Below, piece by piece: positions 1,999 through 38,461 of a DNA stretch of 38,461 nucleotides (positions are counted from its first letter, which is position 1; the number at the start of each line of letters is the position of its first letter). The notes below the pieces were generated by a model that worked only from the letters and a program-made list of their open reading frames with translations, did not search any database and was not told the origin of the DNA. Source of the DNA: a virus. The stretch lies in the IMG/VR virus record IMGVR_UViG_3300030406_005821, positions 2,599-41,059 of that record. The stretch is one strand, 5' to 3'. The translations under genes and the position numbers were made by a program.

Positions 1999-2268
1999 CT
2001 AGTTCTCCTCATTGTATAGATCGTGGTTATACATTGCAATAATCGCATAGTGTATAATTTTCATAAGATCTTTTCGGTTATACCCATTCTTTTTGCCATA
2101 ACGCTGAGCATACTTCATAATATTCCCAATACAGAAACCCTCACCATGACCACCGTCTATGATGAACTCTGTTGCTTGGTAATTGTTTGTGGAATAATGC
2201 TCACCGTAGGTACCATCAATATAGTCTTTGATCTCGGCGATCAGGTCGCCTTCATTATATTTATACAT
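1999..2268 (-). CDS. DUF3310-family small protein
   Basis: Small protein of about 89 residues. The C-terminal two thirds, with GEGFCIGNIMKYAQRYGKK followed by a lysine and an alanine/tyrosine-rich helix, match the pattern of DUF3310, a phage family sometimes labelled a nucleotide-kinase-like protein without firm biochemical proof. The ATG at 2268 overlaps the upstream glycosyltransferase stop (TGATG); a GTG one codon earlier is also possible. The stop adjoins the next glycosyltransferase start without a gap, so it is translated as part of the same operon. Its early codons contain TATAAATA by chance. Function unknown; a role in nucleotide metabolism is a family-level guess. Confidence 0.65.
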   Translation of the reverse strand: MYKYNEGDLIAEIKDYIDGTYGEHYSTNNYQATEFIIDGGHGEGFCIGNIMKYAQRYGKKNGYNRKDLMKIIHYAIIAMYNHDLYNEEN

Positions 2269-3116
2269 CACTTCAAGAACTCCATAAGGGGTGAATTAAA
2301 AGACTTGGGGATAGGGGTGTGAACAAAAGTTTTCCAGATGTTTGAAGGCTTGATTTTTGTTCTTCCATATTGATTTGTGATCTGAAAATTGGCTTGCGGC
2401 CAATACTCTTGTAATTTTAAAGACCGTTTCATTCTATTATCACCAGCGTGAGATGTGTCTGTATTACCACCCTTAATAGTCATAGTCGCTGCTTTATCAA
2501 TTAAAAATTTATTGAACAATAGAGTGCAGTAGTATTTAGTATTAAGAACTTGTAAAGAATAATCTGTGTCTTCAATTACATCATCACGCCACCATATATC
2601 AAGATCATTATTTACTAGAACGCCACTATATACTTGCTGATTTATTCCAACATGATTACTTTTAGAAAAAGCAAACATCGTGTGTGACATTCCAGCAATG
2701 CCGATATTCTCATAAGAATCACAAATAGACTCACAAGCTACAATACATTTAAAAGCTTCACATTTTACATTCTTTGTTGGTTCTCTATACTTAAATGAAG
2801 TAATGTTATCATCAAACTGCCAATGGAATTTTGCACCATTTTCAATGGAATGTTGTTTACAATAATTTCTTACATATGTTATCCCACGGTTATTATGATC
2901 CATTTTTAAAACGGATGAGATATCATAGTGCTCTAAGTACTTTTCATACTCTTGTGGCTCAACAACAACATAAAAAGGAATACCACTATTTTTCAGCTCA
3001 CGTGTAGTTAAAGCAACATCAGCTCGACCGCGAGACGGAACATATACTGGATACTTTACTGATTCAGTTATGTTGTCTATATCATCAAGTAAAGTTTCAG
3101 CTTGCTGTTCTAGCAC
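2268..3116 (-). CDS. TET-associated-type glycosyltransferase, copy B
   Basis: Predicted glycosyltransferase of 282 residues, paralogous to the protein at 3945-4916. Shared landmarks are YPVY (22-25), SRGR (28-31), EPQEY (53-57), an RNYC segment (83-86), HW (98-99), the acidic DDN (102-104), EDTDYS (182-187) and IKGGNT (214-219). These resemble the TET/JBP-associated glycosyltransferase (TAGT) family of phages, thought to put sugars on oxidised or hydroxymethylated bases; this family call is from memory of the motifs. The start is a GTG preceded by AAGGA; no ATG lies early in the frame. It overlaps the epimerase by 20 bases. Acceptor and sugar are unknown. Confidence 0.7.
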   Translation of the reverse strand: MLEQQAETLLDDIDNITESVKYPVYVPSRGRADVALTTRELKNSGIPFYVVVEPQEYEKYLEHYDISSVLKMDHNNRGITYVRNYCKQHSIENGAKFHWQFDDNITSFKYREPTKNVKCEAFKCIVACESICDSYENIGIAGMSHTMFAFSKSNHVGINQQVYSGVLVNNDLDIWWRDDVIEDTDYSLQVLNTKYYCTLLFNKFLIDKAATMTIKGGNTDTSHAGDNRMKRSLKLQEYWPQANFQITNQYGRTKIKPSNIWKTFVHTPIPKSFNSPLMEFLK

Positions 3117-3948
3117 TAATATAGTCCTTTAGGTTTTTTCTGGAAGACCATCCAAGAGCACGTGTTCGATCAGTTATCACCTTTGCTGACATCCTGTTAC
3201 CCTTCCTTTCAGGTAGCATTTCAATCTTTGTATTGATCCCAAACATTGCTGCAACATCGATGATTGTATATGAATCATCGCATCCAATTCCGTATTCGTC
3301 GCCATACCCCTCTTTTCCAACAAGAATAAGCCCATCTATGATGTCATCAATATGAGTAAAGTTTCTTTTCTGTGTACCTGGTTGAACGATTGTAAGCGGT
3401 TCACCATTTTTTACTTTATTGATAAACATTGCAATTAGAGTAGCATATGGACCACTTTCAATTTCTCTTGGCCCATATACATTATAAAAATATGTGATGG
3501 CATAGTCAATAGAATTCCACTCACAAAATAGTTTTACAAATTCGGTGTTTGTCTCCTTTGACCAGGTATAAGGGCTCTTTATATATCCTAAATGCTCGTT
3601 CGTAAATTTTGTGCTTGATCCAGCATATACAAGTTTTGCATCACACTTTTTTACAAAATCGAGAATACATTTAGTACCGATTTTATTATATTCCCAAACT
3701 TTTTCAAAATCATCGAATGACTGCTCTACTCGAGAGTATTCACCTAAGTGATACACGATGTCAAAATTAGTAGGTAATTCGCACACATCTCTTGTATCTA
3801 GGTCTCTATACAACACACCCTGCACGTGATTATCTTCAGAGCCTGTAAAGTAGTTATCTATAGAAGTCACAATATGACCTTCGTTGACCAGTCTCTCACA
3901 CAAATGTGAGCCAACAAAACCAGCACCACCAGTTACTAGTACTTTCAA
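3097..3948 (-). CDS. NAD-dependent sugar-nucleotide epimerase/dehydratase
   Basis: Extended short-chain dehydrogenase of 283 residues, UDP-glucose 4-epimerase-like. The NAD-binding motif TGGAGFVGSH lies at 6-15, an AGSST segment with the catalytic serine/threonine at 109-113, and the YxxxK pair at Y127 and K131. It is slightly shorter than usual for bacterial GalE (about 330). It would interconvert or modify a nucleotide sugar and is placed between two paralogous glycosyltransferases, so it probably supplies their donor. The start is TTG at 3948, supported by a strong GGGAGGAAAGAG ribosome site 8 bases upstream, and it overlaps the upstream stop by 4 bases. The exact substrate cannot be told. 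Confidence 0.85.
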   Translation of the reverse strand: MKVLVTGGAGFVGSHLCERLVNEGHIVTSIDNYFTGSEDNHVQGVLYRDLDTRDVCELPTNFDIVYHLGEYSRVEQSFDDFEKVWEYNKIGTKCILDFVKKCDAKLVYAGSSTKFTNEHLGYIKSPYTWSKETNTEFVKLFCEWNSIDYAITYFYNVYGPREIESGPYATLIAMFINKVKNGEPLTIVQPGTQKRNFTHIDDIIDGLILVGKEGYGDEYGIGCDDSYTIIDVAAMFGINTKIEMLPERKGNRMSAKVITDRTRALGWSSRKNLKDYISARTAS

Positions 3949-4916
3949 AACTCTTTCCTCCCTGATGGAAATTTATTTTCAGAAAAACTTTTATCAATGA
4001 TTGAGCTATCTGTAATTGGATAGTTGCTCATATCATCGTCCACATCTCGATACAAGTTCATTCCATAGTTATCTACTCTATTTAGTAACTCTACATCATC
4101 CTTTAAAATTAAGGCATTTTGCCTGGCTGGCTGACCATCTTTTGTTTTGATTGCATCAAGATCAACGTGGTGATGAACTCGACCATATCTCTCTACGAGA
4201 GTAACAACATCGGGATGCATCTCAACGAGCATCTGTGACTTTCTCAGTGATGCATCTTCTTCATAGTTATTGTAAACTTCAGATGTGTTGCCACCCTTCA
4301 CAGTACCAGTTCTGGCTTTGCCCTGCAAGAAGGCATAGATTAGACAAGTGCATAAACCATCTTTCAGTACACGAATAGATAGATCGACGTCCTCATTGTA
4401 TCGACCACGCCATCTATGCTCAATTTTATTTTGTATTAAGAAACAAGACATGATGCGCGAGTTTAAGATATATGGCGGATATGGATAATCATCAACACAG
4501 AAAAATTTGTATTGAAATCCGGTCAGTGCAATATTTTCATAGCGATCAACAAAATCTTCTGTTGCACGAAAGATACCAGAGCCCCTACGAACACGATACC
4601 TTCTGTTTTTATGCAGGCGCCAGAACTCGTATATATTGTCGTCCATCAACCAATGGCGCTCATGACCCTCGGATATTGAGTGCTCCCAGCACCAATTACG
4701 AGCAGGTCCCGATCCCTTACCGTGATTGCTGAAAGGTAATACAAGCAATTTATCCTCACCACAAGTCTCAGCATAGTTGTCATATTCCTGCGGCTCGATA
4801 GCAATTTTATAAGATGTCACACCCATTCGATCTAGGGCACGCATTGTCATGCGCTGTTTCCATCGACCCTTTGACAGAATGTAGATTGGGTACCTAGTCT
4901 CAAAGTTCATTTTCAT
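3945..4916 (-). CDS. TET-associated-type glycosyltransferase, copy A
   Basis: Predicted glycosyltransferase of 323 residues and the longer of two paralogs. Landmarks in order: YPIY (9-12), SKGR (15-18), EPQEY (41-45), ARNWC (72-76), HW (88-89), DDN (92-94), EDVDLS (175-180) and VKGGNT (206-211). DDN and EDVD are 83 residues apart here and 80 in copy B, so the core fold is shared. A C-terminal extension of about 60 charged residues is unique to this copy. Motifs resemble the TET-associated glycosyltransferase family. The ATG at 4916 overlaps the upstream gene by 17 bases; a second ATG lies at 4910. No strong ribosome site is seen, so translation is probably coupled. Confidence 0.7.
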   Translation of the reverse strand: MKMNFETRYPIYILSKGRWKQRMTMRALDRMGVTSYKIAIEPQEYDNYAETCGEDKLLVLPFSNHGKGSGPARNWCWEHSISEGHERHWLMDDNIYEFWRLHKNRRYRVRRGSGIFRATEDFVDRYENIALTGFQYKFFCVDDYPYPPYILNSRIMSCFLIQNKIEHRWRGRYNEDVDLSIRVLKDGLCTCLIYAFLQGKARTGTVKGGNTSEVYNNYEEDASLRKSQMLVEMHPDVVTLVERYGRVHHHVDLDAIKTKDGQPARQNALILKDDVELLNRVDNYGMNLYRDVDDDMSNYPITDSSIIDKSFSENKFPSGRKEF

Positions 4917-13957: not shown

Positions 13958-14500
13958 TTATACGGTATCAGCAACTGTAAATTGACGATACCTAAATGTT
14001 ACCTCCGCTTGCAGGTACTCAATATCTGTTTGTGTAACATCAAAAGCAAGTGGTGATAGTGATAGGGGAAACATATCTTCAAAAGAAATTCTAATGATTG
14101 GATTATTATTTGAAGATAAAATAACCAAAGCGCCATCAGAATATATACTTGAGCGTGATGTATCTAAGTCTTTATATTGTTTAAAGTTTTCTGGAAATCC
14201 CAACCCCTTTATCCAGTTAAATATTTCTAAATAATTTTTCATTTCCTCATCTACTCTAAATGTGAGGGTAAATGGCTCGTAAGAAATTTTATCACCGGGT
14301 CGAGGTATGTTTACAAAGGGATTGGTTTGAATTGCTTCTACCATAGATATTGTTGGCAATGTCGCCGCTTGACAGAAATACTCTATGTTTGGAGCTCTAT
14401 TTAAAACGAAACGAAAGCCAAGAGGCGATAAAAAGTTGAGATTTTGAGTGAGTGTTTCAGCCTCTAGTGTGTCAATTCCGATTTTTGGTATCAATGCCAT
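13958..14500 (-). CDS. gp19-like tail-tube-fold protein (second copy type)
   Basis: Protein of 180 residues with the pattern of the T4 gp19 tail-tube family: FRFVLNRAPNIEYFCQAATL, then LPTISM, PGDKISYEPFTLTFRVDEE and a W-containing helix (about 90-97). The true gp19 is at 24339-24887, so this is a second tube-fold protein. Candidates are a tube initiator or terminator at the baseplate or neck (T4 gp54, gp48 and gp3 have related roles), but I cannot choose one. It follows a small unknown gene with a 10-base overlap and is served by the late promoter at 14748-14755. It is the last late gene before the early operon. Confidence 0.65.
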   Translation of the reverse strand: MALIPKIGIDTLEAETLTQNLNFLSPLGFRFVLNRAPNIEYFCQAATLPTISMVEAIQTNPFVNIPRPGDKISYEPFTLTFRVDEEMKNYLEIFNWIKGLGFPENFKQYKDLDTSRSSIYSDGALVILSSNNNPIIRISFEDMFPLSLSPLAFDVTQTDIEYLQAEVTFRYRQFTVADTV

Positions 14501-24293: not shown

Positions 24294-24320
24294 AAAAAAA
24301 GGGAGCCGAAGCTCCCTTTT
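24294..24320 (-). terminator. Rho-independent terminator after gp19
   Basis: A 10-base-pair stem (24297-24306 and 24311-24320) with a TTCG loop, followed on the minus strand by a T run. It lies about 20 bases beyond the gp19 stop and shares its core with the terminator after gp23. Confidence 0.92.
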
Positions 24321-24338
24321 GATGTAATATAAAAAATA

Positions 24339-24887
24339 TTAGTTGATAAGACCACCGAAGGCGGTTGCGACGTCTACCGTGAAGAAGTCATAAGTCCAAG
24401 TTACGGTGTATTCTTCAATAGCATCTGCGGTGTCCCAAGATAGTTCAATTGGTGCGAGTACCGTTGGGAATAATCCAACAAACTTATACTCGCGAATGAT
24501 TTCGCCTTGTTTACCGTAATGAATAACCTGCCCTTGTGACTTATAAGCTTCTGGATTTGCACCAGTAAGTCGCAAGTTACCCTGTGTGCTATTAATACTT
24601 TGCACCCATTCCTCAAGACCCGCACGAACTGCGAAATCCTCATCATTAATGATAGTAACAGTCCAGTCTTCATATGTTCTATTACCAGCAAATTTTACAG
24701 GGCGCCCGAAGTAGTTTACAGTGATTGGTGTAAGGTTTGTGCCGGGGACCTGAGCCGCCTTTGCCATAAACCTTACCTTATCATCTGCGGCACTGTTGAA
24801 GGGGTTAGTAATATTTACTTCGAAGAGTGAGGGACGGGCACCCCCAAACTCCATTTGTCCCTGAAACTCTTGTACAGAAAAAGCCAT
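24339..24887 (-). CDS. gp19: Tail tube protein gp19
   Basis: Subunit of the inner tail tube through which DNA passes. It has 182 residues against 163 in T4. The N-terminus (MAFSVQEFQGQMEFGGARPS) and the segments FMAKAAQVPGTNLTPITVNY, GRPVKFAGNRTYEDWTVTII and a final WTYDFFTVD are typical of marine gp19. The ATG at 24887 has TAGGAG upstream and a late promoter at 24914-24921. A strong terminator follows. It lies after gp18, as in T4. Identification is secure. Confidence 0.96.
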   Translation of the reverse strand: MAFSVQEFQGQMEFGGARPSLFEVNITNPFNSAADDKVRFMAKAAQVPGTNLTPITVNYFGRPVKFAGNRTYEDWTVTIINDEDFAVRAGLEEWVQSINSTQGNLRLTGANPEAYKSQGQVIHYGKQGEIIREYKFVGLFPTVLAPIELSWDTADAIEEYTVTWTYDFFTVDVATAFGGLIN

Positions 24888-30789: not shown

Positions 30790-31533
30790 CTATCCAACCA
30801 TATCTTGCACAGGTAAGCTATATGCTGATAATACTTCCTCTTCAAGTTTTTGAATCTCAGCTTCTGCATCATCATATATTTTAGCACCGTTGAAAGTTAA
30901 TCCACCCGGTAATTGCATACCCTCGAACTTCGTAATATTTGATCCCCACTGACGTTTTATAAGTGCAGTTGCGTATCTTGCTAACCATCGATCGCCCCAT
31001 ATGTCAGTATAGACATCTCCATCGACTATACGATATGCATCTACAATGATATATTCGTCGAGAGCAACATCATTATCCCAGTCCATATCAATGTGCAATC
31101 TATTTACGTGTCTGTTAAATCTCAAAGGTTTTTTGCCGACAAATAACTCTTCGAGGTAAGCAACGTGTGTCATAGCAGTAACATATGGTACATACGAAGA
31201 TGCTGATAGATCAAATAAATCGTTTAAATGTATTTGATACCGTATATTGAATAAATTCGACGACTGAACTGCTTGCCCAACATCTAATATACGATTGACA
31301 CCGATAACTGAGTCTGAAAGAGTTATATATCCGTTTGATTTATCAGAAGCTGTCACGACATGTTTTATGAGAACACGCTCGGTACCATCGAAATGATAAT
31401 CTTGGTAGTATTTTAGAGCTTCATCAATACGATCTTCTACTTGCTCAGCATCGACATTTACATCGATTACTGGCTCTCCCAAACGACGAAGACAATAATC
31501 TTTAAATTCAGCCCTTGAACTTGGAACTGCCAT
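30790..31533 (-). CDS. gp13: Neck protein gp13
   Basis: Head-completion protein that forms the neck with gp14. It has 247 residues against 309 in T4. The opening SRAEFKDYCLRRLGEPVIDV and RIDEALKYYQDYHFDG are diagnostic, and the WGDRWLARYATALIKRQWG segment with LPGGLTFNG near 215 closes the core. The ATG at 31533 has GGAG seven bases upstream. A late promoter lies at 31555-31562 in the loop of a nine-base inverted repeat whose gene-proximal arm holds this ribosome site. It begins the gp13-gp17 packaging and neck block. Confidence 0.95.
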   Translation of the reverse strand: MAVPSSRAEFKDYCLRRLGEPVIDVNVDAEQVEDRIDEALKYYQDYHFDGTERVLIKHVVTASDKSNGYITLSDSVIGVNRILDVGQAVQSSNLFNIRYQIHLNDLFDLSASSYVPYVTAMTHVAYLEELFVGKKPLRFNRHVNRLHIDMDWDNDVALDEYIIVDAYRIVDGDVYTDIWGDRWLARYATALIKRQWGSNITKFEGMQLPGGLTFNGAKIYDDAEAEIQKLEEEVLSAYSLPVQDMVG

Positions 31534-31537
31534 TTTG

Positions 31538-31574
31538 AACTCCAGTCTTTTTACTATTTATAATCACTGGAGTT
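31538..31574 (-). promoter_or_regulatory. Inverted repeat hiding the gp13 ribosome site in read-through RNA
   Basis: Perfect nine-base arms AACTCCAGT (31538-31546) and ACTGGAGTT (31566-31574) enclose a 19-base loop that holds the late promoter. The gene-proximal arm contains the GGAG ribosome site of gp13. RNA begun at the promoter lacks the other arm. Confidence 0.7.
31555..31562 (-). promoter_or_regulatory. T4-type late promoter of gp13
   Basis: A perfect TATAAATA on the minus strand in the 45-base gap between the large fibre gene and gp13, 22 bases before the gp13 ATG. Confidence 0.85.
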
Positions 31575-31578
31575 TTTA

Positions 31579-34500
31579 TTACCTTCCATAAATTGGTGGT
31601 AGTGTTCCGTTTCCTGCTATATCTGCCATAGCAAGATATAAATGAACATTACCTGAACCATTTACAGCGCTGTCAGCGGTGCGGGGCACGAAACCATCTG
31701 ATAGTATGTCAATATCGTAATCGCTTCCGCTATCTGGTCCCCTTGCAGCTTCAACATCACGCTCGTCTGTAAATAGAAACAGTTCAGCTGGATTTGTGAG
31801 TGATCGTGCTGTATCTACAATAACCCAATTTCTAGCAACGGCAGTATTTTTAATTAAAATCCATCTAGGTTTAAATCCAGTATGAACATAAACACTACTA
31901 CCTGTTCCAGTATAAATTCCAACCTTACAAACACCGGGAACAGATCTGAAATTATAAGCTCTATGTGTTTGACCACTAGTGTTTACAGCTACACCATTAC
32001 CCACCACAACAATATCATTCGTAATATCGGCTGTTCTGATGCCACTTGTCGAAGTCTGAAGAGCAAGGTTGTAATGTAAAAAGAAATAGTTATTGTCGGA
32101 TAATCCTATACCTTGTGTTGCAGTCCACCAATCACTATTGGTAGATGATCCGGTTGTTCTTTTTATAGCTACGAGCTCTGGTTTTGCTCCAAGACCATGA
32201 AGGAAGTTATCTCCAGCAGTTCCAGTTCCAGTATATTCTACGATGCTTAGATGTCCCGCATCTGCAACGATACCGGTTGTTGCCATAGTATCAGAAGTAG
32301 CACCAGTAGTAATACTTGAACCCGTTGTGGCACTATCTCCTAATAACCACTGCCACAAGACATAACTTTCATTAACAGTGTTTACATTTTCATCGTTGCC
32401 AACTTGCACACCTCTTTGTAAAAACCGTTGCATTACATTTGTATTTGTTGTTGCTATGTCTGAGCCACCATCACCATGAGAGGTCGCAGCACTACCTGAA
32501 TCATTTTGAGTTGTGCTTAGATAACTTGTTGTACCTAGGAGTCTATCTTGAACGATGGTATCATCTGCTGCATCTCTATTCTTAATGATCGCTAGAGCCG
32601 TAAGTTTAGATGCAGTGGCGTCTAGGTTATCCTGATTGAGTTCTAAAAATCCAGTTGGCGCTGTACTTTCCCACCTGTCAGATGCAGTTCTTAATGTTGC
32701 AACTTGCGCATCGTAAGTCGAAATAAATGGTGTGACACTTCCTATAACATTTGTGTGAGCTGCTTTTGCAAGATCGCTTCCATCTGCAATTCCACTTGCT
32801 GATGCACTGTTCATCCAAGTTCCATTTTTACTAAAGTAAATAGCATGACGATCCATATCTAAAGCAACACCGATATAGTCACCCGTAGTGGTAGTGACTC
32901 CATAACCACTTGTTAAAGCTAATCCACCGCCATGTATTTGACCATTTTCACTTAAGCCCCAAAAATCTTTTCTGTCATCCGAACTCATAACTGCTGGTAT
33001 TGAATCTTGAGCAACGCCTGTTCTAAATCTATCTGTTCCAGCTGGATCGTTGTCTCTATTAATCTCCCAATAATATTTGCCAGAAGAAACAAACATAGTG
33101 CCTAGTCCAGTATCAAACTGACTGGAACTCACGGCGCCACCCGTTGCTTTTAAAGCGCCTTCAGTTAATGTGTGTCCAGCATTTCTACCATGATCCCAAG
33201 TACAAAAGTTTTTAGAAGGTGTATCTGTAAATCGATCTGTGGTTGCCCAAGCTGATCCACTATCATTTTGTTCTGCCCAGTGATTTCCGTTACCAGATGA
33301 ATCTTTTCCTGCACCCGTTGTCAACCCAGAATTAAATGTTCCGTCAAATTCTAAGTACCAACCCTCATCACCAAACGTAAGACCAGATACATCTTTAGGC
33401 ACCCAACGGTTTGTTGATGTATCTACTTGACCAAAGCTAGATGGGTCTAGCTGTTGATCTTCGACCATAACCATTTCAGCAAAATAAGCATCTGCTTCGC
33501 CAATTGCGCTGCTCATTTGCCGTCCAATGTTATGTTCTTGGTTATTATTAAAAAACGTATCATAATCATCAGTGCTTAACTGTGTACCAGTTGTAGTCTG
33601 CAGCACACCATTAATATAAATTTTTATCTTATTAGCAGCAGCCACTCCCGTTCTTGTATCAAAAGCAATAACAGCATGTGTCCAACCATCAGATGGTGCA
33701 AATGATCTATCTGTAGTTAAATTAGCAACAAAAGAAGAACCATTATAAAGAAGTATTCTCATCTGTTGATCAAGTGGTTTAAGTGATCCAGATGATCGAA
33801 AGGAAATTTCCGCCTGTTTCGCACCGGTGGTAGTTAAAACAGCATTTACATAGCTAGGATCACTCAAACCTGTAAGTTTAAACCAAAAACTCAAAGTAAA
33901 AGTTTTTTGATTGCCACCAGAACTTGGAGTAAATGATAAATATCTTCTATCATCATATTCAAACATTGCAGATTTATCTACAGTGTAAGTATCAGTGAAC
34001 GGAACAAAGTCACCTACTCTTTGAACACCACCATTACCTTCGTATGTAGTAGCATCAAAGTAATCTATTCCTTGATATGTTGGTGCTGTTAGGTTTTTAG
34101 TGTTAAGTTCCTTAAAACCACTTGGTGCGCTGTAAACAAAATCACTACTATCGAAGCGAAGTGTCAACGTGTCTGATGAACCTCTGGCAGATACAGTTGG
34201 AAATGCTGTGCCGCTTCCGCTTAACGTGCCAGTTTCTCCAGACCCAGCAGCAGGATTTCCGGTATTTGCATAGACATTATTTGAAGCGAACCATATTTTT
34301 CTTGTAGCTGAATCATAAGCAACTCCAATAGTAGTGCCGGATACGGGTGCTCCGGTACTAAAAACAGTGCCGCTTGTTTCCGATCCGTCTTCATATAGTT
34401 TATTACTACCGCTTTCAGTATACACCGCAATTTGAGGTGTGATATCTTGAACCCAATCATCGTAACCATGATTGACTGATCCATCTCCCGCAATGCCAAA

Positions 34501-35517
34501 CATAAGTGCATCGTTTGAACCACCAGTCAACAAATATTCCCAGTAATATTTTCCGGAATCATCTGGTATTCCAATGGTAGTTCTCATTGCAGCTTTGTCG
34601 TCTGCAGATGGTCCAGCAAAATCAAGATTGCCGCTTGTCGCAGTAGCGGTAGTCGTATCAATAATATTTAAAACTGGATATGATAAGCTAGGTGTGTGAC
34701 TTGATTGATTAGCTGCTGCCATACTTGTAGCAGTAAAATCATTATTATTGCTGCTAATATCATTCCCAAGATTAGAGGCATCAGAAAAATCTAATAAATG
34801 CGAGTGACCACCAGCAGAATTAATTCTAGCTACTAAATCAGATGTTTTCTTTGGTATTACTTGAGAACCATTAGTTCCAAATGTAAAAGTATCTACATAA
34901 TCAGATGGAACAGCAGCAGTACCTAATTCTAAAGCGCATTGAGCAAGGTATGAATTTGTTCTGCCAAACGTTCCCGCTGTATTTTTACAAGCACCCCAAT
35001 AATAAGAAGCACCACCTGTGCCACTGCCTATAGGATTTGTACTACCAGCGGTGAATCTTTTCTCTCCAACATCGTTGGATCCAACATGTTCTCCGTTTAC
35101 AAAAAGTTGCATTCTGCCATTCGTGCCATCATAATTTGCTAATATATGATACCACCCAAAATCTCGAAATACTTCATTTGTTGTAATCTGGCTGCCAGAA
35201 CCAGAAACGCTAGAAAATACAATCCACGTAAGTGTGTCGGCATTTAACCAAGTGAGTTGAACACCAGTGTTTGAATCAAAATAGTGATTGAATATTCCTG
35301 TAAAAGTACCTTCTGTAAATTCATTTCGTTGCACCCAACATGATACTGTAAATTTTGATGAAGCTGATCCACCACTCGTCTTTGCCATTTCAAGCTGATC
35401 TGAAGAACCATCAAACCACACTGAATTACCAATCAGAGTTGAGTCAAATACAGTACTACCTCCAGCAGCCGCAGCAGTTCCCGCAACAACACCTTGGTGT
35501 AAGTTAAATACCGACAT
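31579..35517 (-). CDS. Giant LamG/SPRY mosaic fibre protein
   Basis: Protein of 1312 residues, very likely a tail-associated host-recognition protein. Domains by pattern: LamG-like about 20-215 (FTVSCWVQRNEF, then WYHILANYDGTNGRMQLFVN); SPRY-like about 315-470 (DDSGKYYWEYLLTGG); a second LamG about 530-715 (FTLSFWFKLTGL, KIKIYINGVLQTTTG); a second SPRY-like about 770-970 (SSGKYYWEINRDND); and a C-terminal module from about 1060 with RFLQRGVQVG, NFRSVPGVCKVGIYTGTG and the ending PPIYGR. This last module is shared with the protein at 36663-38461. No signal peptide or membrane segment. T4 has no counterpart. Confidence 0.8.
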   Translation of the reverse strand: MSVFNLHQGVVAGTAAAAGGSTVFDSTLIGNSVWFDGSSDQLEMAKTSGGSASSKFTVSCWVQRNEFTEGTFTGIFNHYFDSNTGVQLTWLNADTLTWIVFSSVSGSGSQITTNEVFRDFGWYHILANYDGTNGRMQLFVNGEHVGSNDVGEKRFTAGSTNPIGSGTGGASYYWGACKNTAGTFGRTNSYLAQCALELGTAAVPSDYVDTFTFGTNGSQVIPKKTSDLVARINSAGGHSHLLDFSDASNLGNDISSNNNDFTATSMAAANQSSHTPSLSYPVLNIIDTTTATATSGNLDFAGPSADDKAAMRTTIGIPDDSGKYYWEYLLTGGSNDALMFGIAGDGSVNHGYDDWVQDITPQIAVYTESGSNKLYEDGSETSGTVFSTGAPVSGTTIGVAYDSATRKIWFASNNVYANTGNPAAGSGETGTLSGSGTAFPTVSARGSSDTLTLRFDSSDFVYSAPSGFKELNTKNLTAPTYQGIDYFDATTYEGNGGVQRVGDFVPFTDTYTVDKSAMFEYDDRRYLSFTPSSGGNQKTFTLSFWFKLTGLSDPSYVNAVLTTTGAKQAEISFRSSGSLKPLDQQMRILLYNGSSFVANLTTDRSFAPSDGWTHAVIAFDTRTGVAAANKIKIYINGVLQTTTGTQLSTDDYDTFFNNNQEHNIGRQMSSAIGEADAYFAEMVMVEDQQLDPSSFGQVDTSTNRWVPKDVSGLTFGDEGWYLEFDGTFNSGLTTGAGKDSSGNGNHWAEQNDSGSAWATTDRFTDTPSKNFCTWDHGRNAGHTLTEGALKATGGAVSSSQFDTGLGTMFVSSGKYYWEINRDNDPAGTDRFRTGVAQDSIPAVMSSDDRKDFWGLSENGQIHGGGLALTSGYGVTTTTGDYIGVALDMDRHAIYFSKNGTWMNSASASGIADGSDLAKAAHTNVIGSVTPFISTYDAQVATLRTASDRWESTAPTGFLELNQDNLDATASKLTALAIIKNRDAADDTIVQDRLLGTTSYLSTTQNDSGSAATSHGDGGSDIATTNTNVMQRFLQRGVQVGNDENVNTVNESYVLWQWLLGDSATTGSSITTGATSDTMATTGIVADAGHLSIVEYTGTGTAGDNFLHGLGAKPELVAIKRTTGSSTNSDWWTATQGIGLSDNNYFFLHYNLALQTSTSGIRTADITNDIVVVGNGVAVNTSGQTHRAYNFRSVPGVCKVGIYTGTGSSVYVHTGFKPRWILIKNTAVARNWVIVDTARSLTNPAELFLFTDERDVEAARGPDSGSDYDIDILSDGFVPRTADSAVNGSGNVHLYLAMADIAGNGTLPPIYGR

Positions 35518-36651: not shown

Positions 36652-36659
36652 TATTTATA
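36652..36659 (-). promoter_or_regulatory. T4-type late promoter of fibre-assembly block
   Basis: A perfect TATAAATA on the minus strand in the gap behind the partial fibre gene, 55 bases before the next ATG. No inverted repeat across it was found. Confidence 0.8.
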
Positions 36660-36662
36660 AAC

Positions 36663-38461
36663 CTATCTACCATAGATCGGTGGATAGGCTCCATTCGGAG
36701 CTATTTCTGCCATCGCTAGGTAGATGTAGGTTTGGTTGCTATTATTGAAGCCGCCAGTTTTTCTGAGCTTAAACCCATTTGATAAGAAATCCATCTGTTC
36801 GCCATCTGTATCTTCTGCTGAATTTGCATTACCAAAAAGTCTTTGTTGCACTGGATTATCTATATCTCTTTTATTGTCCAGAATTCCCCATGCACCAGTT
36901 GCATCAATAGTCTTGGTCATAACCCAAGCAGGTTTAAAGCCTAGATTTACAAAAGTTCCATCGGCAGCATTATTTCCTTCATAGCTTCCTACGCTACATA
37001 CACCGGGAACTGAACGGAAACAATAAACAATCATACCCTGTCCGTTTCCGTTAGTATCTGGTGTTGCTCCAGAACCAATCGTAAAGACCGTAGAATTAGG
37101 TTCTGCATCATTGAAATAGTTTGAATTGCCAGAGCCTGGTTTAGCAGCAGTGCTACTTAATAAAATGTAGTTAGTCGCTCCTATCTCTTTATGATAAACA
37201 GTTCTGTTAGCACCATTCTGCTCTCTGTTAATGAATATCATCATCTCTGGTGCACCACCCATACCGTGGGCGACTGTTTGCACTCCAGTAGCACCTGTAA
37301 ATCCTACGACAGAAAAATGTCCCGCATCAGCAGCAGCCACGGTGCTCGCTATTGATCCACCACTTGGTGTAGTGGTTGTTGCACTGGATCCAACGAGCCA
37401 CTGCCATAGAACATGGCTTTCATTAACAGTGTTTTCTTCTCCACCACTGCCAACCTGCACGCCTCGTTGTAAAAACCGCTGTACACCATTTTGACCATCA
37501 ACTTCTACACTCGTGTTATTGAAACTTAAACTTTTTTGAACGCCTCTCACACGATCTACTAAATTGTGATTATCACTATCATCCCTATTCTTGATCCACG
37601 ACCAAGCAGTGATCTTATCATCAGCACCATCTTTATTATCTTGAGTAAGTGCCTTATAACCCGTTGGTGGCGTACCGTTCCATTTTGTAGAATCGAATAA
37701 AAAGTTTACAGAGTTACTAGAGCCACCACTGACTGCACCGAAATAGAAAGTATCTTCTCCGGTTAGATGCAACCCAAACGGTGCCGCACCAGTTCCGGCT
37801 TCACCAGATGTAGGATCACCCGTTACCGAACCACTCCTGCCATAATATGTGAGTGTAGAACCGCTTCCTCCGGATCCAACCTCACCCACATAAGCATACT
37901 TGTTATCAGCATCGTATGCAAAGAACATTCGGTCTCCGTTTGCGATAAATGCTCCAGGACCGCCACTTGGAGAGGCTCCGCTCGCTGCACTATACAGAAT
38001 CTTTGTGCCATCACCGTGTGCGCCGAGCCAGTGACCCTCGGCAGGTGCTATCAAGAATGAACCTGAGTTGTTATTCCATGGCGTTGTTGAAGAAAATGCA
38101 ACACCTGCTGGCGTAAAGAATCCTGGATAAAATGCCGATGCTGTAGTAACTTCTAACTCCCAATACCATTTACCAGACGTTAAAGGAAAACCAGAAACGT
38201 ATCTTCCACCGTTATCAGCACCAGTGTATGTTAGATTGCCTTCTGTTAATGTTGGAGTCGCACTACCTATCGTATCCTGTGAATCTAGAACGGCATGGTT
38301 ATTAGATGGTGTATCGTTGGATTGATCACCTGCAGCAAATGCATTTACGGTATAATCATTATTATTACCACTAACATCGTTACCAGGACCATTACCGGTG
38401 CCTGGAGCTATTGCCATATCGAGATAGAAACCGTTAGTACCGAACGTAAGACCGGATACGT
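36663..38461 (-). CDS. SPRY-like fibre protein with shared C-terminal module (partial, N-terminus beyond window)
   Basis: The frame is open to the right edge: reading back from the ATG at 38417 gives VSGLTFGTNGFYLD in frame, so that ATG is not the true start and the N-terminus lies outside. About 599 residues are visible. A SPRY-like region (LTSGKWYWELEVTTASAF) is followed by DGDRMFFAYD-type strands. The C-terminal 270 residues (RFLQRGVQVG, NTVNESHVLWQWL, FRSVPGVCSVGSY, ending PPIYGR) are paralogous to the end of the giant protein at 31579-35517. A host-recognition fibre or adhesin is likely. The missing part probably holds a LamG domain, as judged from the paralog. Confidence 0.8.
   Translation of the reverse strand, partial: VSGLTFGTNGFYLDMAIAPGTGNGPGNDVSGNNNDYTVNAFAAGDQSNDTPSNNHAVLDSQDTIGSATPTLTEGNLTYTGADNGGRYVSGFPLTSGKWYWELEVTTASAFYPGFFTPAGVAFSSTTPWNNNSGSFLIAPAEGHWLGAHGDGTKILYSAASGASPSGGPGAFIANGDRMFFAYDADNKYAYVGEVGSGGSGSTLTYYGRSGSVTGDPTSGEAGTGAAPFGLHLTGEDTFYFGAVSGGSSNSVNFLFDSTKWNGTPPTGYKALTQDNKDGADDKITAWSWIKNRDDSDNHNLVDRVRGVQKSLSFNNTSVEVDGQNGVQRFLQRGVQVGSGGEENTVNESHVLWQWLVGSSATTTTPSGGSIASTVAAADAGHFSVVGFTGATGVQTVAHGMGGAPEMMIFINREQNGANRTVYHKEIGATNYILLSSTAAKPGSGNSNYFNDAEPNSTVFTIGSGATPDTNGNGQGMIVYCFRSVPGVCSVGSYEGNNAADGTFVNLGFKPAWVMTKTIDATGAWGILDNKRDIDNPVQQRLFGNANSAEDTDGEQMDFLSNGFKLRKTGGFNNSNQTYIYLAMAEIAPNGAYPPIYGR

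Follow-up and report, generated by a model that had tools for sequence, protein, structure and literature searches.

The junction between the fibre genes and gp13 in this T4-like phage raises the question of what becomes of gp13 on RNA that runs on from the fibre gene, since the late promoter and the ribosome site of gp13 are bracketed there by an inverted repeat. The window, which is the whole 38,461-nucleotide stretch of DNA analysed here, belongs to a virus record of 41,059 bases, and its recognised genes all lie on the minus strand in the order fibre genes, gp13, gp14, gp15, gp16, gp17, gp18, gp19, gp20, a fibre gene, small genes, gp21, gp22 and gp23. gp13 (30790-31533, minus strand) encodes the neck protein, or head-tail adaptor Ad2, of 247 aa (phrog_211, E 1.6e-41), is identified by tblastn matches to gp13 neck proteins of named T4-like phages, and opens the conserved neck-packaging operon gp13-14-15-16-17. 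Upstream, in the same direction, lies a fibre-like gene of 1312 aa (31579-35517, minus strand; phrog_19943, phrog_24898), whose stop codon (31579-31581) is 4 nt before the 5' arm of the repeat. This arm, AACTCCAGT on the coding strand (31566-31574, minus strand), is the exact complement of the 3' arm ACTGGAGTT (31538-31546, minus strand), which holds the gp13 ribosome site GGAG; both are perfect 9-mers, the loop between them is 19 nt long, and gp13 starts at 31533. Within the loop lies a T4-type late promoter box, TATAAATA (31555-31562, minus strand). In T4 the late promoter box is about one helical turn upstream of the transcription start (PMC2988020), and by analogy we place the predicted start (+1) at the sixth base after the box (31549, minus strand), so that the 5' arm occupies -25 to -17 and, with the box between the arms, the predicted start falls 3' of the 5' arm. 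The coding strand (minus) thus runs GGTAATAAA - AACTCCAGT - GATTATAAATAGTAAAAAG - ACTGGAGTT - CAAA - ATGGCAGTT, and the junction itself reads TAATAAA, AACTCCAGT, GATTATAAATAGTAAAAAG, ACTGGAGTT, CAAA, ATG.

The sequence of the repeat and its position relative to the promoter and predicted start are directly seen, and we consider that the repeat probably works as a translational switch at the RNA level, likely insulating gp13 from upstream transcription. Read-through RNA from the fibre gene would carry both arms, would fold into the hairpin with GGAG hidden and would be poorly translated into gp13, while RNA from the promoter in the loop would begin at about 31549, would be free of the 5' arm and would leave the ribosome site open. 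We infer from the sequence that such read-through RNA exists, folds in this way in the cell and is affected in its translation; the likely purpose would be insulation, the output of gp13 being set by its own promoter whatever gene of the variable module precedes it, and in part of the clade an upstream intrinsic terminator would do the same job.

Taken alone, the window genome is suggestive only, chance being a modestly unlikely source of the gp13 hairpin there. The pattern CTCCAGT-N8-30-ACTGGAG occurs once in the window against 0.01 expected, and shuffling the upstream arm only, in this single genome, gave P = 0.0014 for the 9-bp Watson-Crick run and P = 0.005 for the duplex energy, values in the range 0.001-0.005 that take no account of the nine promoters tested or of the site having been picked by eye. 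The predicted cost of opening GGAG was 9.2 kcal/mol in read-through RNA and 3.8 kcal/mol in promoter-begun RNA (shuffle P 0.006), and Rfam gave no family match above its gathering score in the window. Such uncorrected P values are what a chance inverted repeat has in its favour; against it stand pairing in relatives beyond that of shuffles, covariation and specificity to gp13, and we regard it as scarcely credible. It is because of this comparative evidence in relatives that the gp13 hairpin lies well beyond chance.

Viral contigs were scanned three times with gp13 proteins, which gave 181 leaders, or 61 distinct ones after merging near-copies, and the ingroup with the promoter box comprised 52 distinct gp13 leaders; the TATAAATA box is the same in most gp13 leaders of relatives. 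Sequestration exceeded that of shuffled upstream arms (P<=0.05) in 26 of the 52 ingroup leaders, P values here and in the comparisons below being too small on account of the shared ancestry of the leaders. A separate structural threshold also gave 26 hairpins, with a median opening cost of 9.9 kcal/mol in read-through RNA against 2.7 in promoter-begun RNA. Among close relatives the stem is kept through a compensatory change of AGT/ACT to AACCA/TGGTT, and the arms AACTCCAGT/ACTGGAGTT of the window are replaced by AACTCCAACCA/TGGTTGGAGTT in L008 and L263. Arms with sequences unrelated to those of the window were observed in L053 (CATTGCAATCTC/GAGATTGCAATG), L063 (TCACCTCTGA/TCAGAGGTGA), L273 (CTCTGATACA/TGTATCGGAG) and L266 (CCCTCCG/CGGAGGG), and a further distant relative has at the same position the unrelated stem ACAGCCCTCCG/CGGAGGGTTGT. 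In alignment A3, 82.7% of cells pair, against 31-46% when the arms are slid by 1-3 columns, and double-change cells number 9 against 3.8 in shuffles. Conservation and covariation are therefore matters of direct observation. A comparable gp13-leader hairpin was not seen in T4 or in nine named T4-like phages (DLP6, Cr30, phiN3, S-8S53, Mosig, Melnitz, HTVC008M, RHph_I1_18 and OspM_OC), most of them without the box, and the locus had no direct DNA matches in named phages.

Perfect dyad symmetry could also mark an element of the DNA itself, a cruciform or a symmetric protein site around the promoter, and compensatory change would equally keep a DNA dyad. However, the stems hold 17 G-U wobbles against 5 A-C mismatches (P 0.008, symmetric scoring, ungapped core count), and this excess favours coding-strand RNA over a DNA cruciform; a count from the gapped alignment, 14 against 13, was uninformative as it extended into AT-rich flanks, and the ungapped core count is preferred. 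Moreover, the arm sequence is free to change, unlike that of a protein site, and the repeat occurs preferentially where the 3' arm holds the ribosome site, which together make a DNA-level element very unlikely. The earlier note, whose perfect nine-base inverted repeat with GGAG in one arm and the late promoter in a 19-base loop proved exact in its coordinates, had claimed that read-through RNA is silent and promoter-begun RNA translated; hiding and exposure of the ribosome site are indeed predicted at gp13 and are conserved with compensatory changes, so that the claim holds at the level of prediction.

The placement of the 5' arm points in the same direction as an RNA-level switch, as it ends at or before +2 in every strong relative. 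In L222, L225 and L297 the 5' arm is shifted past the TATAAATA box and still ends at about +1, and in L298, which falls below the cut-off, it likewise lies past the box and still stops at the predicted start. An arm stopping at the predicted start is what selection for absence from the late RNA would predict. Two further arrangements were noticed in gp13 leaders. The late promoter of L222, L225 and L059 is enclosed by two stacked stems, of which TAGCGTA/TACGCTA includes the start codon and AGTCCTAG/CTAGGACT the ribosome site; L213 and L216 have another hairpin, ATAGATCA/TGATCTAT, whose loop carries the ribosome site and whose 5' arm overlaps the variant promoter box TAGATAAATAG.

The closeness of the upstream stop codon to the 5' arm, 4 nt in the window, would suit translational coupling, in which ribosomes finishing the upstream gene cover the 5' arm, open the hairpin and keep gp13 in step with that gene. 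Such coupling would need a fixed short distance, but in hairpin leaders the distance from the upstream stop to the gp13 start ranges between about 39 and 200 nt, and the genes that precede gp13 are not related to each other, so we consider coupling improbable. A ribosome halted at the fibre stop codon could nevertheless briefly open the hairpin, which counts against the switch.

The restriction of the hairpin to gp13 is also directly observed. When one pipeline was run on every gene start linked to TATAAATA among the first 195 sequences, sequestration by the upstream arm of at least 3 kcal/mol was found in 17 of 31 distinct gp13 leaders, as against 7 of 154 leaders of other late genes (P 1e-10). 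A design common to all late promoters was rejected, as gp18, gp19, gp20, gp21, gp22, gp23 and smaller genes were at or near background. In the comparison with shuffled sequence that the earlier note had proposed, gp13 exceeds shuffles across relatives whereas the other late genes do not, and the idea of a genome-wide feature had to be given up for this 41,059-base record, its other late genes being near background. The same note had held gp20 to be a second strong case, which our results contradict. The gp20 inverted repeat GCCATTATA/TATAATGGC is present in the sequence, its 9-mer overlapping the box at TATA, but it is not retained in relatives; its duplex energy does not stand out (P 0.14), its ribosome site is unpaired (0.7 kcal/mol in read-through and 0.7 in promoter-begun RNA), and sequestration of its start codon was neither above shuffles (P 0.23) nor conserved. 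Just upstream of the gp20 promoter lies an intrinsic terminator, GGGAGCTTCGGCTCCC-T7 (window 24297-24320, minus strand), conserved in 13 of 16 distinct relatives; gp20 would be insulated by this terminator and not by a promoter-spanning hairpin.

Terminators also occur before gp13. A GGCCC-GGGCC-T5/6 terminator lies upstream in 8 distinct gp13 leaders, and the hairpin was found in none of these 8 against 26 of the 44 others (Fisher P 0.004), an exclusion confounded with the upstream gene family, as most terminators follow family 9; L271 and L273 have family 9 upstream and yet carry the hairpin. On the gp13 protein tree, where labels are thresholded, the terminator state needs 5 changes, and sister lineages differ in their device, L053 having the hairpin and L217 the terminator, and L286 the hairpin and L295 the terminator. 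At gp13, hairpin and terminator appear able to replace one another. Across the ingroup about 18 families supply the gene that precedes gp13, with fibres and 2OG-oxygenase-like proteins among the functions assigned by eye, and the hairpin persists, although leaders after 2OG-oxygenase-like genes mostly go without it. Neither device was clear in 18 of the 52 ingroup leaders, which implies that insulation is not indispensable. We infer that a variable module has its edge at the fibre-gp13 junction, where either the hairpin or the terminator acts as the insulator.

That the hairpin might itself be a terminator or attenuator, ending upstream RNA while the promoter in its loop restarts transcription, is suggested by a run of T5-T7 after the 3' arm in the subclade L025, L029, L033, L034 and L035, and by the ordinary terminator that lineages without the hairpin can carry in its stead. 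For the window copy this was rejected: the 3' arm is followed by CAAAATGG without a U run, and a terminator scan, which covers loops of 3-8 only, listed none at the hairpin, whose loop of 19 is long, and found none between the fibre-like gene and gp13. As most relatives also have no coding-strand U run after the hairpin, we hold this explanation to be unlikely. In the five leaders of the subclade the T run stands directly before the start codon, and the read-through RNA would also look like an intrinsic terminator whose loop holds a promoter.

A broader reading of the switch is evenly poised in our judgement: that a large clade of uncultured T4-like phages may share a conserved insulator, in which a promoter-spanning, ribosome-hiding hairpin would guard the start of the neck operon from transcription of a rapidly changing fibre and accessory module, would evolve freely in sequence, would be exchanged repeatedly with an intrinsic terminator and, in one subclade, would be fused with it, the promoter lying in the terminator loop.

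By analogy, the mechanism is predicted to be of a kind known from T4. The principle of a late promoter within a hairpin is established for T4 e, soc, 49 and I-TevI, and the same has been described, by prediction or experiment, for I-TevII, I-TevIII, segB and mobE of Aeh1 (PMC3014915, PMC2988022), such genes being late genes on long transcripts with early and middle genes (PMC2988022). The T4 controls e, I-TevII and segB reproduced the pattern of hiding and exposure in the same opening-cost calculation. In T4 e (lysozyme), as here, late promoter boxes lie between the arms, the long RNA hides the ribosome site and the late RNA is without the 5' arm (PMC3014915), with computed opening costs of 14.5 and 3.6 kcal/mol in long and late RNA. 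The two hairpins have no sequence relation, and silencing of e concerns a lysis gene on early RNA, whereas gp13 here, a core neck gene, follows late fibre genes. In T4 I-TevII the hairpin CCTCGTAT...ATACGAGG encloses the promoter in a near-identical geometry, at computed costs of 11.3 against 0.3 kcal/mol; however, I-TevI, I-TevII, segB and Aeh1 mobE are mobile endonuclease genes in early or middle units (PMC2988022), while a core structural gene is concerned here. In T4 soc and gene 49, both late genes, longer RNA sequesters the initiation region (PMC3014915), as is predicted for gp13, but soc lies behind non-structural genes, and by computation its ribosome site is not buried and the helix covers the start codon. 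T4 gene 13 itself is orthologous and likewise placed before gp14, yet its leader has neither TATAAATA nor a promoter-spanning hairpin.

This anatomy, with its documented role in T4 e (PMC3014915) and I-TevI (PMC2988022), allows that the gp13 hairpin is a classic T4 timing switch, blocking translation from early and middle RNA so that gp13 is made late only. We rate this a possible but doubtful account, as the upstream fibre genes have their own late promoter box at 36652, from which most read-through RNA should be late, and related leaders retain the hairpin behind many kinds of upstream gene. What is new, if the hairpin is read as an insulating switch, is that it serves a core late gene which itself follows other late genes and borders a variable fibre and accessory module; a literature search, with subscription papers mostly outside its reach, found no report of such a hairpin at gp13. 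A mechanism known from a few T4 genes, namely lysis, capsid-decoration and mobile ones, would thereby reach a core structural gene in a broad environmental clade, for the suggested reason that a conserved operon becomes independent of the adhesin or accessory gene placed upstream by recombination. The interchange with a terminator makes this idea testable from sequence alone, and covariation of the hairpin arms may help to mark where late RNA truly starts in uncultured phages.

Other features of the window were also observed. The C-terminal parts of the fibre genes at 31579-35517 and 36663-38417 (both minus strand) match the same families, phrog_19943 and phrog_24898, and have near-identical final residues. 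Besides gp19 (24339-24887, minus strand), a second tail-tube-like protein (phrog_45) is encoded at 13958-14500 (minus strand). Two genes, at 2268-3116 and 3945-4916 (minus strand), match beta-glucosyl-HMC-alpha-glucosyltransferase (phrog_842), a hint that the phage DNA may contain modified cytosine that is glucosylated.
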